Below are positions 36,920 through 50,345 of a DNA stretch of 64,000 bases, piece by piece. Positions within the stretch are counted from its first letter, which is position 1. Each line of letters starts with the position of its first letter. The stretch lies in NCBI GenBank assembly GCA_028715605.1, contig JAQURM010000003.1:1-64000 (forward strand), in the 5' to 3' direction. The position numbers and the translations under genes were made by a program. Below the pieces are notes generated by a model. It ran no database searches, had not been told where the DNA came from, and saw only the letters and a program-made list of their open reading frames with translations. Source of the stretch: Desulfovibrionales bacterium. Lineage in GTDB: Bacteria; Desulfobacterota; QYQD01.

Positions 36920-38503
36920 TCATAGAGATAACGCGCGGCGTATATCTTCCGGGCAGGACTGGAGGATATGGGCCGTGGCCTTAGCCACGGTCTGGCTTGT
37001 ATCTACTCGAAGAAGGCGGCCGGACGGTATCTCCTCCGGTCGATCAAAGGTCTCCACCTGTTTCAGGTATATCTCCCAGCGGCCGTCTGAGACGGCCTTC
37101 TTGTTTTTTCTGCGTCTTTCCAGCCGGGCCTTAGTTTCTTCCTCCGGGCAGTGGCAATAGACAAAGCAGTAGGGGACATCCAGTTCTTCAGCCATCCAGA
37201 TCAGGGCCGTCCTTTCGTCCCGGTCCTTGTATGAGGCGTCGAGGATGACGGATTCCCCCATCTCCAGCCGGGCCGCCGCCTCTTCGCGCAATCTGGCATA
37301 GGTCGAGCGGGAAAAGTCCGGGCTGTAAATGCCCTGTCCGAAGGGCTCCGGCCTTCTTTCTGTGGGCGCGAGGCCGGCCATTTTTTTCCTGATCTCATCA
37401 GAATTAAGGGGCGCGATGGCTAGCTTTTCACCAATAACCCTGGCCTGGGTGCTCTTCCCGCCGGCAATAAGGCCAAAGAATACCAGGAGAACCGGCTTCC
37501 TTTTTCCGCCGGCATAGCGGTAGGCAAGGCCAAAGTATTTTCGGGCCGTGGACAGAGAGCGGCTCCGGTCTTCTTCGCTGATTTCCTTGCTGTCCGCCGA
37601 GAAGGAGTGGATTTTGCCGCGCACATAGGCCCGGTAACATTTGTAGAAATCCAGTAGGTCTATAAGCGAGCGATCGCCGGAGAGTTCCACAAAGCGATCG
37701 ATAAGATATCCGGAGAGGGCGCCCAACCGGTGAAAATCCAGGTCCATGGCCAGGAAGGCTATATCACAGGCCACGTCTCCATAGCGGAAACGCTCGTTGA
37801 ACTCTATGCAGTCGTAAATATAGACATCATCAGCTATACAGATGTTGGCCGAATAGAGATCCCCGTGCCCGTCCCGGATTTTTCCTGATTTTATACGTTC
37901 CTGAAAGAGATCAGCCTTTTTTTCAAAGAAGGAGAGGCTATATGCCTTAATGGTTTCAAAACGCTTCCTGGTGAGGGCGCGGCCGATGTAGCCTTCGGTC
38001 TGGGCAAAGTTTTCCTCGATATTGAAACGTACCTGCGGGATTTCGCCATAGAAGTCTATCTCCGGGCCGGTGGCGGCCTGTGCGTAGAAGGGGACGAGTT
38101 TTTGCACGATGCGGTCGATGACCCCTTGATCTACTTTGTCATCCTTTATCAGGACGTCCATCATCCGGTCCTGGGGCATCTGCCGCATCTTTACCGCGTA
38201 TTCAATGACTTCTCCCGGACCGTTTATAAAAAAGCCTTTTCCGTCTGTAGTCACCGGTTCCACCCCGAGATATATCTCCGGCGAGAGCCTTTTATTGAGG
38301 ACTACCTCCCGCTCACAAAAGTGTTTGCGTTTTTCGAGGGTGGTAAAATCGAGAAAACCGAAGTTAACAGGTTTTTTTATCTTATAAACAAAGTCACCGG
38401 TAATAAATACGTAGGAGATATGGGTCTGGACAAGTTTTATCTCGGCTACCGGGTGGGGATATGCCCCTGGCCCTAACAGGCCCTTTACAAAGTCAGGCAA
38501 CAT
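36920..38503 (-). CDS. Aminoglycoside-phosphotransferase-like / P-loop kinase fusion protein
   Basis: A 527-aa two-domain protein. The N-terminal 330 residues are APH/kinase-like: FVYKIKKPVNFGFLDF, and a catalytic loop HGDLYSANIC with DCIEFNERFRYGDVACDIA. The C-terminal part has a P-loop, LIAGGKSTQARVIGEKL near residue 350, and an adenylate/gluconate-kinase-like body. This fusion is widespread and has no settled substrate; it is annotated as AAA/ATP-binding protein in many genomes. It marks the right border of the accessory island. Confidence 0.82.
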   Translation of the reverse strand: MLPDFVKGLLGPGAYPHPVAEIKLVQTHISYVFITGDFVYKIKKPVNFGFLDFTTLEKRKHFCEREVVLNKRLSPEIYLGVEPVTTDGKGFFINGPGEVIEYAVKMRQMPQDRMMDVLIKDDKVDQGVIDRIVQKLVPFYAQAATGPEIDFYGEIPQVRFNIEENFAQTEGYIGRALTRKRFETIKAYSLSFFEKKADLFQERIKSGKIRDGHGDLYSANICIADDVYIYDCIEFNERFRYGDVACDIAFLAMDLDFHRLGALSGYLIDRFVELSGDRSLIDLLDFYKCYRAYVRGKIHSFSADSKEISEEDRSRSLSTARKYFGLAYRYAGGKRKPVLLVFFGLIAGGKSTQARVIGEKLAIAPLNSDEIRKKMAGLAPTERRPEPFGQGIYSPDFSRSTYARLREEAAARLEMGESVILDASYKDRDERTALIWMAEELDVPYCFVYCHCPEEETKARLERRRKNKKAVSDGRWEIYLKQVETFDRPEEIPSGRLLRVDTSQTVAKATAHILQSCPEDIRRALSL

Positions 38504-38656
38504 GCGGAACCTCTGATAGCAGATAAGATGACTCTTGTTATCAGCTTATGGACGAGGTGTCAAGGTATCGGTGTTTATTTTTGATAATACTGGACATCTG
38601 ATAAGGAGTTTTGATATGCTCTCTCAGGTAGGTAATAATCCTTTGTAGGTATTGAG

Positions 38657-40015
38657 ATGAGCAGGCGCTTAGCATATCTTTTTTTGTTGGTTATAGTGTT
38701 CTTAGCCTTTTTTGCCTCATCCGGCGCGGAAGAAGGGACAAGGATAACCCTGCTCTTAACCGGACAGACCCGTGGGGCATTGGAGCCTTGCGGCTGAGGC
38801 GAAAACCGGGCTGGCGGTCTGGCCAGAAGGGCTACAATAATCAAGGACGTTCTTAAGGAGAATCCTCAGGCCCTGTTAATCGAGGGGAGCGGCGCTTTTC
38901 ATGGCGCAGGCCCGACGGATCTGGTAAGGACTGAGGTTTATCTAAAGACCCTGGAGAAGATGGGCTATCACGCCATTGCCCTGGGCGGCGACGCCTTCAA
39001 CTTCGGGACTGACTTTATCCGGAAGCAGATTAAGAGCTTAAACATTCCTTTCCTTTCGGCCAACGTCCATAGGGGTGAGGCTAAAGAGCTTCTGGGGAGG
39101 CCATATCTAATCAAGGAACTGGGCCCGGTCAAACTTGGAATCCTGGCCCTGACCGCGCCGCCGCTCAACCGCGATCAAATTCAGGCTGAGGGGTTCGGGC
39201 TTGAAGTATCTGATCCTTTAGCCGGTATCAAAAAATATCTGCCTGCCGTCAAAAGGGAGACTAACCTGGTTGTGGTCTTAAGCGATCTTCCGGAAGAAGA
39301 AAACAGATCACTCGCCGCTGAATTTGGCGACGTCCAGGTTATCCTGGCGGCCAGAGGCAATATCCCTGTAGAAAATGTCAACCATGCCGTCATCGTCTCT
39401 CCCGGCCAGAAGTATCTGGCCAGACTGGATTTATGGGTGGACCATTATGGACGGCTTCTAAGGCATGACTTTAAGTGGATATACCTTTCGATGGATATTC
39501 TCCCTGACCCGGAAGTAGAGCAATTTATTTCACAGGCTTATGGCGCAGCGTTTAAGGATCGGGCAGCGCAGGCCGGGGCAAGGCGGAAGTTTTCTGACCA
39601 GGCGCTGGAGCAGGACAGGGATAACGGCTACGTGGGGGCGGAGGGCTGCCGAAGTTGCCATGCGACTGAATACCGGGCCTGGAAAGGCACCAGGCATTCC
39701 CGGTCCTTCGATACCTTGAGAGATGTCCGGAGGCATTTTTATCCTGATTGTGTTTCGTGTCATACCACGGGTTTTGGTTATCCTACCGGCTTTCAGATGG
39801 GTCAAACTACGGGTGGCCGACTGGCCGGTGTGGAGTGCGAGGTATGCCACGGCCCGGGCCGGAAACATACCTTCTATCCTGAAACATCTCGGTTGAGACG
39901 TACTGTCCCTGCTTCCATCTGTCTCGCATGCCATGACAAGGAGAGAAATCCGGACTTCGAGGGGCAAAAGGAAGTATTGTTTAACCGGATAAGCCATAAG
40001 GCATTAACTCGGTAA
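38657..40015 (+). CDS. Tetrahaem cytochrome c / metallophosphatase-like selenoprotein candidate
   Basis: A single 453-codon frame with one in-frame UGA at codon 47 (38795-38797). A signal peptide (MSRRLAYLFLLVIVF) is followed by a 5'-nucleotidase-like domain that begins TGQTRGALEPCG-UGA-GENRAGGLARRA. In the homologues I recall this segment reads EPCGC, so UGA replaces a conserved Cys. The same frame runs on to four CxxCH haem sites: CRSCH (residue 331), CVSCH (365), CEVCH (394) and CLACH (422). The UGA is followed by a SECIS-like hairpin. Without Sec, the visible frame would begin at 38960 without a signal peptide. Probably periplasmic, electron transfer. Confidence 0.82.
38798..38826 (+). 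promoter_or_regulatory. Putative bacterial SECIS element
   Basis: After the UGA there are 13 bases, then CTGGC-GGTCTG-GCCAG (38811-38826): a 5-bp stem with a GGUCUG loop. The GGUCU begins 18 nt after the UGA, the same distance and loop sequence as in the E. coli fdhF SECIS, where GGUCU in the apical loop is bound by SelB. Seen directly in the sequence; function inferred. Confidence 0.75.
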
Positions 40016-40055: not shown

Positions 40056-41159
40056 TTATTGAGATTGGCCAGCCGGCGAAGAGGAAAAACAGCGTTTAAA
40101 TGATATGGCCAGGATGGCTGTAAAGGCCAGGACGAAAAGGCCATTGGCCATAAAGGAAAAACTGTACCCCCACCTGTTGTTTAGAAGACCGGCTACTACT
40201 GCTCCGGAAAACATGGCGGCCGTCCGCACCACATAGAGCAGTCCTGAATTTCCCCCGAGGCGCGCCCCCGGGAAGTAGAGCGCAGTCAGGACCCCTATGC
40301 CTAAAATGGCTATGGCGTCACCCGTGGTGTGGAATATCCTGGTTATAAGAAGACCCCCGAACGACCGCGCATTCCCGGTCAGGAATTGAAAGGCGCCGGA
40401 CATTACAAGGCCGGCAAAGAGGAAATGGATAATCCTCTGCTTACGATCCATAAAGTATCCGATCCATGGGGCCAAAAAGGCCATCCAGAGGCCGATACCG
40501 GCAAACATATAGCCGATGTTTCTGGGCGCAAATCCCAGTTTCCCTTTCATTAAAAGTGTAAAGGAAGTTTGCTCTACGCCAAAGTGGGTGGCCAGGACAA
40601 ATATCCCCAGTATCAAGAGGAGTCTTCCCGGTTTTTTCAGGTCAGCCCGGTATTCCTCAAAGCTAAACCTGATCGGGGCAGAATCCCTGAGAAATAAAGT
40701 AAGCGCGATAAGCGCCAGGGAGCATGCCCAAGCCGTAGCAATTAAAGACTTTGGTGGATAGTAAGAAGTGATCAATCCTCCTATAAGCGGTCCAAAGGCA
40801 TATCCCAGGTAACCGCCCACGTGGTAGAGGGCCACCTGCCGGCTTAAACTATTGCGCGTGATGACCTTGAGATAAAGAGACGAAAGTACAATAAAGAGGG
40901 CGGAGGCGCCGGCGCCTCCGATAGCGACAGAGAGCAGGAGCCAATAAAAGTTCCGGGAGAGGAGGAGGAAGAAGAAGTACAGACTCAGGCAACACGTACC
41001 GGCAATGACGGTTTTTTGGGGAGAAAAGTAATCGGAAAAGACTCCCATGGGGAGCATAAGCAGCATGGAGGCCATGGAGAATGTGCCGATTATTATGCCG
41101 ATACGGCCATCGGTCAGGCCGTATTCTTTCAGGAGAAGGGGCAGAAATGCGAAAACCAT
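40056..41159 (-). CDS. MFS transporter, start codon uncertain
   Basis: At least 367 aa with about 11-12 membrane segments. The motif-A-like loop GVFSDYFSPQK follows the second segment, and family style resembles sugar/nucleoside-type MFS permeases (FLPLLLKEYGLTDGRIG). The reading frame stays open upstream through FFAANTLFYFCHW, which looks like the true first helix, back to 41228. There an ATC follows AAGGAG at good spacing, but no ATG, GTG or TTG exists. So either the ATG at 41159 gives a shortened first helix or a rare AUC start is used. The gene follows the SAM hydrolase-type gene. Confidence 0.75.
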   Translation of the reverse strand: MVFAFLPLLLKEYGLTDGRIGIIIGTFSMASMLLMLPMGVFSDYFSPQKTVIAGTCCLSLYFFFLLLSRNFYWLLLSVAIGGAGASALFIVLSSLYLKVITRNSLSRQVALYHVGGYLGYAFGPLIGGLITSYYPPKSLIATAWACSLALIALTLFLRDSAPIRFSFEEYRADLKKPGRLLLILGIFVLATHFGVEQTSFTLLMKGKLGFAPRNIGYMFAGIGLWMAFLAPWIGYFMDRKQRIIHFLFAGLVMSGAFQFLTGNARSFGGLLITRIFHTTGDAIAILGIGVLTALYFPGARLGGNSGLLYVVRTAAMFSGAVVAGLLNNRWGYSFSFMANGLFVLAFTAILAISFKRCFSSSPAGQSQ

Positions 41160-46302: not shown

Positions 46303-46998
46303 TCAACTACTGTAAATCAGATAAACGCCGCCCAGAAAGACCATGCCCCCGCAAGTCCTTTTTAATATGACAGCGCCACGGGAGTTTTCATTCCAGTTCA
46401 TATACTGCTGGACCAATTCGGCGGAGGTTCCGGCTGCTACAATGACCGAACAGTGGCCGAGGCCGTACATGAGGAGCAGGAGAACCCCGTAGGAGATGTT
46501 TGTGGCGGCAATTTGAAAGGTGACGCCAATAATGGGCGCCATGTAAGCAAATGTGCAAGGGCCCACGGCCACACCAAAGATCAAGCCGAGGACCATGGCC
46601 ATCCACAAACCCTTTCGTTTCATGCCTATCTGCCCTGGGCCGGACCAGGGGGCCGGGATTACGTCCATCAGGTAAAGACCTACCAGGAAGAAGACCCCGG
46701 CAACCAGGTAGTTACCGTAAGGGCCAATATCCCCCAGCATGCGGCCGGCTGCTGCGGTTACCAGGCCAATGGTAGCAATGGTTATCAGAATTCCACAGGC
46801 AAAAAGAAAGGATATAAAAAAGGCTCGTCCGGTAGACATACGCCCCTGACCGTCGATGAATCCAATAATCAGGGGGATAGAGGCCAGGTGGCATGGGCTG
46901 AGAAGGATGCTAAGGATCCCCCAGATAAACGATGCTCCCAGGGCCATACTAGAGCTGTTCGCTATGGCTCGGGTCAGCACACTAAAAAGTTGATCCAT
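46303..46998 (-). CDS. ccdA: CcdA/DsbD-like transmembrane thiol-electron carrier
   Basis: A 231-aa inner-membrane protein with six hydrophobic segments of the CcdA (DsbD transmembrane) family. The two conserved Cys sit in LLSPCHLASIPLIIGF near residue 35 and VGPCTFAYMAP near 148. It moves reducing power from cytoplasmic thioredoxin to periplasmic thioredoxin-like proteins, needed for c-type haem attachment. Its neighbours, an exported thioredoxin and a multihaem cytochrome, fit exactly this use. Confidence 0.88.
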   Translation of the reverse strand: MDQLFSVLTRAIANSSSMALGASFIWGILSILLSPCHLASIPLIIGFIDGQGRMSTGRAFFISFLFACGILITIATIGLVTAAAGRMLGDIGPYGNYLVAGVFFLVGLYLMDVIPAPWSGPGQIGMKRKGLWMAMVLGLIFGVAVGPCTFAYMAPIIGVTFQIAATNISYGVLLLLMYGLGHCSVIVAAGTSAELVQQYMNWNENSRGAVILKRTCGGMVFLGGVYLIYSS

Positions 46999-47013: not shown

Positions 47014-47385
47014 CTATTTGATGAATCTGAGTTCCTTAAGTTTGGCTACCAGATCGTCTTTCGGATAAAATCCCAGATGTCGATAAACCTCTTGACCATT
47101 CGTATCTAAAAATACTTGTGTGGGAATAACCATGATCCGGTACTGCCGGGTTATTTCTGGTTCTTTATCGATTTCCACTACCTGTACCTTAAGCTGTCCT
47201 TCGTACTCCCTGGCCAGGGACTCCAGAATAGGCTTCATTTGTCGGCAAGGGATACATATTCCCCTTCCAAACTCCATTAGGATGGGAAGCTTTGGCTTTG
47301 CCGCCGGTTCAGCCCGGAGAGGGGTAATTGACAGGAAACCTATAAAAAACACCAGCACCAATGCGATAAAAGCCGTCTTTTTCAT
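47014..47385 (-). CDS. Exported thioredoxin-like protein
   Basis: A 123-aa protein with a signal peptide (MKKTAFIALVLVFFIGFLSI) and a thioredoxin fold with active site GICIPCRQMKP (CIPC) and cis-Pro in IMVIPTQVFLD. The start at 47385 is set by GGGAGGGAAAGACCC and the signal peptide. It is 15 nt upstream of ccdA, which presumably keeps it reduced. Likely a periplasmic reductant for apocytochrome or other thiols of this operon. Confidence 0.88.
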   Translation of the reverse strand: MKKTAFIALVLVFFIGFLSITPLRAEPAAKPKLPILMEFGRGICIPCRQMKPILESLAREYEGQLKVQVVEIDKEPEITRQYRIMVIPTQVFLDTNGQEVYRHLGFYPKDDLVAKLKELRFIK

Positions 47386-47426
47386 GGGTCTTTCCCTCCC
47401 GAATTTATTGTAATCTGTGGATGTTC

Positions 47427-47624
47427 TCATTTCTTAGTAAATCGATCCTTCTGCCTTTGCTTGTAAGAGGCCTCAAAGACCGGTACACAATGCGGTCCCA
47501 TTTTTTGTTTTATCTTCTTCTCCAGGCATTCCTTTACAAAATTCAGCGCTTCTTCCTTGTCCGCGTCCGGGACGATGCGCATGATACGCTGAATTTGTTC
47601 GGCGCTGAACTCAGGTATCGTCAT
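47427..47624 (-). CDS. Small hypothetical protein, 65 aa
   Basis: Family unknown. It is helical and charged with one Cys (KMGPHCVPVF) and ends in a basic tail. It lies between the cytochrome and thioredoxin genes on the same strand with gaps of 87 and 41 nt, and may be part of the operon. No signal peptide. Confidence 0.5.
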   Translation of the reverse strand: MTIPEFSAEQIQRIMRIVPDADKEEALNFVKECLEKKIKQKMGPHCVPVFEASYKQRQKDRFTKK

Positions 47625-47711: not shown

Positions 47712-50345
47712 TTATGGTTTCCACTGTGGATGATGTTTTTCCACCCATTCTTTAGAAACCTTTCCTTCAAAGATACTTCTCAAAGTGCCGGGGTTGGCGA
47801 TGGTTCCGAGATAAACGTGCACCATAACCATGGCCAGGAACAGAAAGGCACACATACCATGAATGGCAATGGCTATTTGTCTCAAATTGGTTGCATCGGA
47901 CCAGATCAGGATCAATCCGGTCACAGCCAGGGCCGTTGCCATTAATAAAGCCGACCAGAAGAAGAGCTTCTGTCCGGCATTGAAACGGGAGGCCGGGACC
48001 TCTCCTTTATAGCCGAAGTAGCCCCCTAGTCTCTTTAGCCACTCTGAATCACAGCGCTCGAACCAAGCGTCCCTGAACCAGGTCAGGAGAATCAAGAGCA
48101 CGGTCAAAAGAAAACCATATCCGAAGTAGTGATGCCAGGCATAAACGGACCCTATAATGTCCGAGGAGAACCGGGCGCCTGATAGGGTCAGGTAACCGGT
48201 TACAGCAAGCGCCAGGAAAGTGACGAGCGAACTGTAATGAATAACCCTTTCCAGGACGCTGAATCGCTGAATTTCTTGAAAAGAAGATCTCTCCTGTATC
48301 CGCCTGGGACCAAAAATAATGTAATGGAGCAAAAGGATTACGAGGACTATAAGCAGTCCCCAGTAACTGAGTGGTCTTAAGGTTTCCTGCTGAAAAATAC
48401 CCATATTGACCGCTGATGGGGCGAACCCCAGAAAGACAAAATTCGGCTGGGTAACTCTTTGGCCGATTCCATCAAAGGGGTTGACCAGAACCGGCTTGAA
48501 GAAGAAGCCTGAACCTGAACTGTGGCAGTCTTTGCATCCTCCGGAACCGATGGCAGCGCGGGCCGGGCTGACATCGTGGCTGAATTTGAAGACCGAGCCG
48601 TAGGGACTGTACTCGTGAGGCTCTCTCGGCAGGGTCCGCCAGTTTATGCCGTCTGGAGTCGCCTGATCTCCCTTTACAAAGACCACCCTTTTGCCGTCCA
48701 GAGATTCGCCTTCGGCCCGAAGGTGTTTTGTAACGGCGGAGAGTAGAGCCTGGATTTCGTCTGCCCGGTTGACCTCCGGGAAGCCGTCTCCATTATCGTC
48801 GTGGATCGATTCCAACTCCGGGTAGTTCCTTTCCGGTTCGGCCCGGTGCATGGACCACATCTTGAACATATCCTTCATATAGGGCTGGCCGAGACCTTTT
48901 TTACCCTCTTCTTCGATCCCGACCCAGATACTATATAGACGGGTCAGGGGATAAATCTTTCCCTTGTACCAGCCAACCACAGGTGCGTAGGTAAAGACCG
49001 GCTGGTAATTGGCGGTGGACGCATCCACCTCGCCGTAATAGTTCCAGGGCTTGGCATCCGGCCCGTAGAATGACCAGATGCGCTTGGGCGGCGGCTCAAT
49101 ACGCGGGGTGCCGTTAAAAACCGTGCTGTCCTGAATGAGAGCGGCCTTCACCTGTCTGGCCGGAATATGGCAGGTCTGGCAGGCGATTTTTTCCAGGTGG
49201 CGCGGCGGAAGCCCCCGGTGTTTCATGACCGGCGCGTTAAGGAGACCCTTGCTATGGCAATCCGCGCAGGTGCGCATGGTGTTGTCCAGATCGTTCCGCA
49301 CCAAACCGCCCGGATCATCGCCTTTTCCGATCTGATGGACCTCTTTGCCCTGAATTCGCTTATCCGTTGCCCGGCTCCCGGTCAAATGGCAATCGATGCA
49401 ACGAAGTCCGGCCCGGATATGCACATCGGTACGGGTATTGTATGATGCGCCCTTTTTCTTCCAGTCTGTTTCCTGATGGCAGAACAGGCATTTTGAGGAA
49501 GGGATATCGCGTACGATATTCAAGGCAACCTTCCCGTCTTCTTTGAAGAGCTTGGGGTCATAGACGACATGGGGCTTTTCTCCTTTGGCCGTCTCGCCCT
49601 TTATCTCACCAAACCCGGCCCCGGCAGTGGCTGCCCACCGAAAGTTTAGCGTCTTGATCTGTCCCGTACGTTTTTGATTGTTATAGGCCGGGAGATGGCA
49701 AAGGAGGCAGTCGGCCTCGATCACCCCGGTCTCGGTCCACTTGGCCTTGAAGTAGTCCCCGTCAAACCTGTTATCTTCACCTGACTTAACACCATTTGCG
49801 GGATCACCGGCCACCTGATCGTACCTCTTCCCGTTTCGGTCGTATTCCAGAGGACCGCCGCCCGGGTGGCAACCGCCGCAACCGGCGGTAACAAAGTCAA
49901 AAGACGTCATATCGATCTCACGGCCTGAGGTATTGTTCTTCTTCGCCAACTGGCGAAAGACAGGGGCCGGAGTTCACCACCGCCCCCCGTACTGGCCGGG
50001 CGAGGTGCACCAAGGGTAAAGTTTCGTAAAGGCCGCGGTCATCGGCTCGCCTTTCCCCTGCTGAAAGTGGTAACTTTGGGTGATCTTGTTGTAGTCGTGG
50101 CACCGGCCGCAGGTCTTTTTGGGGCTGTAAGGCCTGTCGGCATTCAGACCCTTGCCCGGATCGATGACATTTCCGTACTCGTCCAACAGGTTAAACGGCG
50201 GGCAGACTCCCATGGCCGCCCGCTTGGCGTCGGATGCTGCGGACTGACCGGGAAGGGGGATCAAATCCTGCCCTTTAAGGAGAGAACGGCCTCCGAAGAG
50301 GACAAGACACACCGCCATAAGACCTAACCACCAGCTTTTCTTCAT
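47712..50345 (-). CDS. Octahaem cytochrome c / cytochrome b fusion with in-frame UGA (Sec candidate)
   Basis: One 878-codon frame interrupted only by a UGA at codon 124 (49974-49976). The first part has a signal peptide (MKKSWWLGLMAVCLVLFGG) and CGRCH. After the UGA follow CGGCH, CLLCH, CLFCH, CIDCH, CADCH, CQTCH and CKDCH, so eight haem sites in all. Residues 640-870 are a membrane cytochrome b domain (four helices with His, as in formate dehydrogenase gamma/cyt b561). Neither half makes sense alone, since the second lacks an export signal. The UGA context is YGGRW-UGA-TPAPVFRQLA. A hairpin follows the UGA. Probable quinone-linked periplasmic electron transfer. Confidence 0.72.
49941..49973 (-). 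promoter_or_regulatory. Putative SECIS-like hairpin after the cytochrome UGA
   Basis: On the minus strand, 14 bases after the UGA, CTTTCGCC-AGTT-GGCGAAG (49959 down to 49941) forms a seven-pair stem with one bulged U in the 5' arm and an AGUU loop. A bulged U and a G-U in the loop are features of bacterial SECIS elements. The loop is smaller than in fdhF, so this one is less certain than the other two. Confidence 0.5.

Follow-up and report, generated by a model that had tools for sequence, protein, structure and literature searches.

A probable selenoprotein that joins an UshA-like domain without metal ligands to a tetrahaem cytochrome domain in a Desulfovibrionales bacterium

Does the in-frame UGA near the start of a haem protein gene from a Desulfovibrionales bacterium encode selenocysteine, and if so, to which family does the protein belong and what might it do? 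The gene lies at 38657-40015 on the forward strand of a stretch of 64,000 nucleotides (contig JAQURM010000003.1, assembly GCA_028715605.1), the whole of which is called the window here. An earlier sequence-only reading had described one continuous frame with a single UGA at codon 47 and four CxxCH motifs, and this description has been confirmed: the product comprises 452 residues plus the stop, and its only in-frame TGA (38795-38797) stands in the context ALEPCG-U-GENRAGGLARR. As a selenoprotein gene of the NF041198 family in the wider sense, the frame is backed by profile matches, by orthologues in four genomes of the same genus and by pN/pS ratios. The protein begins with a hydrophobic helix (38657..38731, MSRRLAYLFLLVIVFLAFFASSGAE; helix 2-20 in the structure model) that may be a signal peptide or a membrane anchor. 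It continues with a 5'-nucleotidase/UshA-like domain devoid of metal ligands (38732..39520), as judged from Foldseek, phmmer and the ligand columns, in which the CxU motif Cys45-Gly46-Sec47 is found (38789..38797), the CG[U/C] being invariant in 19 and in 41 aligned homologues. The C-terminal part is a tetrahaem cytochrome c554-like domain (39617..39946), delimited by PF13435, by NF041198 positions 354-517 and by invariant columns; it carries the four CxxCH sites CRSCH (331-335), CVSCH (365-369), CEVCH (394-398) and CLACH (422-426) together with the invariant His347 and His404.

Such genes are easily mis-annotated. Standard ORF calling places the start at 38960, whereby the first 101 residues are lost from the annotation, and these residues hold the one invariant motif that lies outside the haem sites. 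Its neighbours are a divergent gene for an AAA-domain protein (36920-38503, reverse strand) and a convergent gene for an MFS transporter (40056-41159, reverse strand); the gene stands alone between them, and the context therefore gives no hint of a substrate. An upstream ORF with a good ribosome-binding site (38616-38648) was considered as a leader peptide and rejected, its sequence not being kept in the same-genus orthologues.

By far the best NCBIfam match of the protein is NF041198 (UshA_like_PCGU), with 264.6 bits and an E-value of 1.5e-78, which falls just below the curated cut-off of 275 bits. Membership in the wider family is argued from the architecture and the motif, and the equivalog label of NF041198 is not claimed. 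The protein shares with this family the PCG[U/C]...GGLARR motif, with EPCGU at residues 43-47, as well as the UshA-like N-domain, the C-terminal cytochrome segment and the occurrence of selenocysteine and cysteine forms; it differs in being 67 residues shorter than the profile, in scoring below the cut-off and in forming a long branch of its own. As the C-terminal 198 residues match NF041198 positions 354-517 with 133.3 bits, and thus inside the profile, the tetrahaem domain belongs to the known family and is not an addition to it. The same domain is recognised by Pfam PF13435 (Cytochrome_C554) with 53.5 bits, compared with a gathering score of 20.8 (E 4.9e-14), and like cytochrome c554 of Nitrosomonas (1BVB) it has a C-terminal haem pattern that includes CxxCHxxGFG and CExCHGPG, whereas cytochrome c554 is a free-standing cytochrome without an UshA-like domain or selenocysteine.

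It had been proposed from the sequence that selenium might be undescribed in this kind of haem protein, and this has to be given up: NF041198 covers the exact architecture, and an UshA-like CxU selenoprotein was already present in the GOS survey of 2008 (PMC2398784). That COG0737 protein likewise is UshA-like with a CxU motif and has known cysteine homologues, but the word "cytochrome" is absent from the main text of the GOS paper (PMC2398784). UshA-like CxU selenoproteins also appear in a review of 2022 (PMC9312934), and a review of 2026 names NF041198 among the selenoproteins and further lists an UshA-like family 2 with a CxxU motif as well as selenocysteine in the multihaem cytochrome ExtKL (PMC13188914). 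The UshA-like (seleno)protein family 2, NF049981, has a related N-domain with selenocysteine and a relative in the genome of the window (L002, see below), but it is distinguished by the CxxU motif and by a model of 262 positions, to which the protein of the window aligns with only 49.1 bits at a cut-off of 140. The gene is a somewhat divergent new representative of a catalogued selenoprotein family, and in this respect it confirms known biology without extending it.

That the UGA occupies the position of a conserved cysteine, as the sequence-only reading had expected, is borne out by the homologues. Among 126 distinct homologue rows with a readable motif, the codon at this position is TGA in 81, TGT in 27 and TGC in 18, and TAA or TAG in none, the motif pattern having admitted only cysteine or any stop; five further loci had no readable motif. 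The TGA could be a true stop or an error of sequencing, which would make the gene a pseudogene or a gene with an ordinary cysteine codon, and the assembly is indeed a draft of 25 contigs. Against this stands that the TGA is kept in the orthologues of the four same-genus genomes and is shared by the 81 homologues, which are spread over several phyla. Furthermore, pN/pS values among the same-genus orthologues are 0.12-0.27 before the TGA and 0.11-0.28 after it, which indicates purifying selection on both sides, most substitutions being synonymous, and a stop or an error is thus very improbable. The in-frame TGA could also be explained by a variant genetic code in which UGA stands for another amino acid throughout the genome, which is even less probable, as among the 38 longest non-overlapping ORFs in the window 14 end with TGA, the homologues have cysteine at the site, and the genome holds the genes for selenocysteine insertion: selA (648.8 bits), selB (374.6 bits), selD (383 bits) and a tRNA-Sec with the anticodon TCA that was confirmed by ARAGORN. 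The search for this machinery had been called for by the sequence-only reading. The selD gene of the genome (G000:C3:234208-235134) has one in-frame TGA itself and is probably a selenoprotein gene as well. In the window there are nine frames with a single TGA, and the other eight look like chance.

Downstream of the TGA, the RNA of the forward strand can form the hairpin CTGGC-GGTCTG-GCCAG (38811..38826), which is supported as SECIS-like by its form and spacing, by the family pattern and by the constraints of the bacterial SECIS model. This model allows loops of 3-9 nt, stems of 4-16 bp, a G in the first two loop positions, spacings of 16-37 nt and free energies of at most -7.5 kcal/mol (PMC13188914). 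With its 5-bp stem, its 6-nt loop that begins with GG, its 18-nt spacing and a free energy between -9.2 kcal/mol (hairpin alone) and -12.1 kcal/mol, the hairpin passes all four bSECIS constraints. The resemblance to the SECIS of E. coli fdhF that had been pointed out before is real, since the GGTCT loop starts exactly 18 nt after the TGA in both genes, as was checked in a complete E. coli genome; the two differ in stem sequence, and here the loop codons are those of the protein's own GGL motif. An Rfam search of the window at gathering thresholds gave no match. The hairpin taken alone is ordinary in this one gene: its energy has a z of -0.3 against dinucleotide shuffles, and against synonymous-codon shuffles the energy gives p 0.35 and the stem pairs, 5 compared with 3.6 expected, p 0.08. 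It is unremarkable in these comparisons, since a stretch that encodes the protein motif GGLAR is inclined to form such a hairpin anyway.

A different picture arises from the family. The codon after GGL has C as its third base in 76 of the 81 selenocysteine genes, but only in 8 of the 45 cysteine genes. Stem pairs number 3.89 in the selenocysteine genes where 3.07 are expected from synonymous codons (an excess of 0.82), compared with 2.64 observed and 2.61 expected in the cysteine genes (an excess of 0.03); both kinds of counts were made with a stricter motif, and the looser codon count misplaced the GG in a few rows. The contrast in stem-pair excess has a P of 2e-7 if the rows, which share ancestry, are treated as independent, and in the 7 branch-disjoint pairs on supported branches, which are too few for significance, the median p is 0.5-1. 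Form, spacing and the pattern across the family thus speak well for the hairpin, short of proof by a phylogeny-corrected test. What is beyond chance is the family pattern and not the hairpin of a single gene. SelB-dependent reading of UGA47 as selenocysteine would be the expected outcome, because a cysteine-equivalent site, a bSECIS-type hairpin, selA, selB, selD and tRNA-Sec are all present. On these comparative grounds it appears very likely that the protein is a member of the UshA-like family in which UGA47 is decoded as selenocysteine.

Matches related to NF041198 are found in 323 of 395 genomes of the phylum, and almost all of the strongest ones have exactly one TGA. On a quick tree the distribution of selenocysteine and cysteine forms requires 10 changes, and at least 7 of these changes are forced by supported branches. 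The lineage of the window is a long branch on this tree that groups with the cysteine forms of Latescibacterota and Poribacteria, a placement behind which long-branch effects are possible. Two close relatives in family f33, L077 and L080 (in G207 and G251), have TGT in one case and TGA in the other at the motif; this is a recent switch between the two amino acids and useful for testing. In Latescibacterota and Gemmatimonadota (L085-L095), the cysteine form stands at the start of much longer frames of roughly 915-990 codons by the reference coordinates, and further domains may be fused to it in these records. In one of the same-genus orthologues (L058, G091:C35), from an assembly of 260 contigs, the reading frame is interrupted within the haem domain, owing perhaps to decay or to an error of assembly.

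The structure model of the protein (pLDDT 87.4, pTM 0.84) matches UshA in Foldseek with an E-value of 2.3e-19, and further matches are CD73, the Thermus 5'-nucleotidase and SoxB; phmmer finds 2z1a with an E-value of 1.3e-12. Residues of about 28-310 have the fold of E. coli UshA, the CD73 5'-nucleotidases and SoxB, but these proteins carry no haems, and their two-metal site is missing from the protein of the window. The metal ligands of UshA, which are D41, H43, D84, N116, H217, H252 and H254 in UshA numbering, correspond in an alignment to the Thermus 5'-nucleotidase to Q37, R39, G79, G111, D210, R233 and N235, and the catalytic His-Asp pair of UshA is replaced as well. Both domains that the sequence-only reading had named, a metallophosphatase-like one and a tetrahaem one, are there, but "metallophosphatase" applies to nothing beyond the fold, since every UshA metal ligand has been lost. 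Within the family the ligand columns vary, and a single column may be retained in as many as about half of the rows. What is invariant in the aligned homologues are C45, G46, Sec/Cys47, G53, G54, the four CxxCH, H347 and H404.

One could imagine that selenocysteine is decoded and the protein still is a metal-dependent nucleotidase or a SoxB-like thiosulfohydrolase in which the haems have a separate role. The fold and the profile matches to UshA, CD73 and SoxB would agree with this, as would the parts of the ligand set that are kept in some homologues, but here every one of the seven metal ligands has been replaced, as have the two catalytic residues, and it is the CG[U/C] and the haem sites that are invariant, so that this alternative is unlikely. 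Hydrolase activity seems to have been lost in the lineage of the window, to judge from the aligned residues; the loss is not claimed for the whole family, because the ligand set is partly retained in some of its members. With the two-metal site lost, the N-domain would be a 5'-nucleotidase fold from which phosphate ester hydrolysis is not to be expected.

A redox function is favoured over hydrolysis. The protein would be exported and its haems attached outside the cytoplasm, and Cys45-Gly-Sec47 would be a redox site, either of the selenenylsulfide/dithiol type or with a selenolate that binds a substrate or a metal. Electrons would travel in one or the other direction between this site and the four haems on its own polypeptide, and the overall role might be that of an extracytoplasmic sulfur-, selenium- or thiol-oxidoreductase. 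That a CxU pair and an invariant tetrahaem partner occur on a single polypeptide points to an exchange of electrons between the two, and such a mechanism is put forward tentatively, as a possibility to which we give somewhat less than even weight. The same reserve applies to the wider idea that a phosphatase fold without its metal site may have been turned into a selenocysteine-dependent redox enzyme that is electronically coupled to the tetrahaem domain it carries, with selenocysteine and cysteine exchanged several times. No characterised example of a selenocysteine-dependent redox enzyme on a phosphatase fold with its own tetrahaem domain was found, nor a described function for the UshA-like PCG[U/C] family, and experiments on a Sec/Cys pair in fusion with a tetrahaem domain would address an unusual kind of site.

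Several other selenoprotein and haem genes were noticed. A second UshA-like selenoprotein gene of the genome (L002, G000:C4:154239-155126, forward strand) has the CxxU motif KPCPG-U, followed after the TGA by GGTCTGGCCCGG; it encodes about 300 residues without haems and scores 165.7 bits with NF041198 and 84.6 bits with NF049981, both below the cut-off. A free-standing tetrahaem protein of 147 residues (L003:1399-1842, G000:C1:474530-474865) matches the C-terminal half of NF041198 and is perhaps a split-off or a donor form of the haem domain. In the window itself, the reverse strand encodes a fused multihaem cytochrome c/cytochrome b561 protein (47712-49949) and, next to it, a thioredoxin-like protein (47014-47430) and a DsbD/CcdA-like membrane protein (46303-46998).
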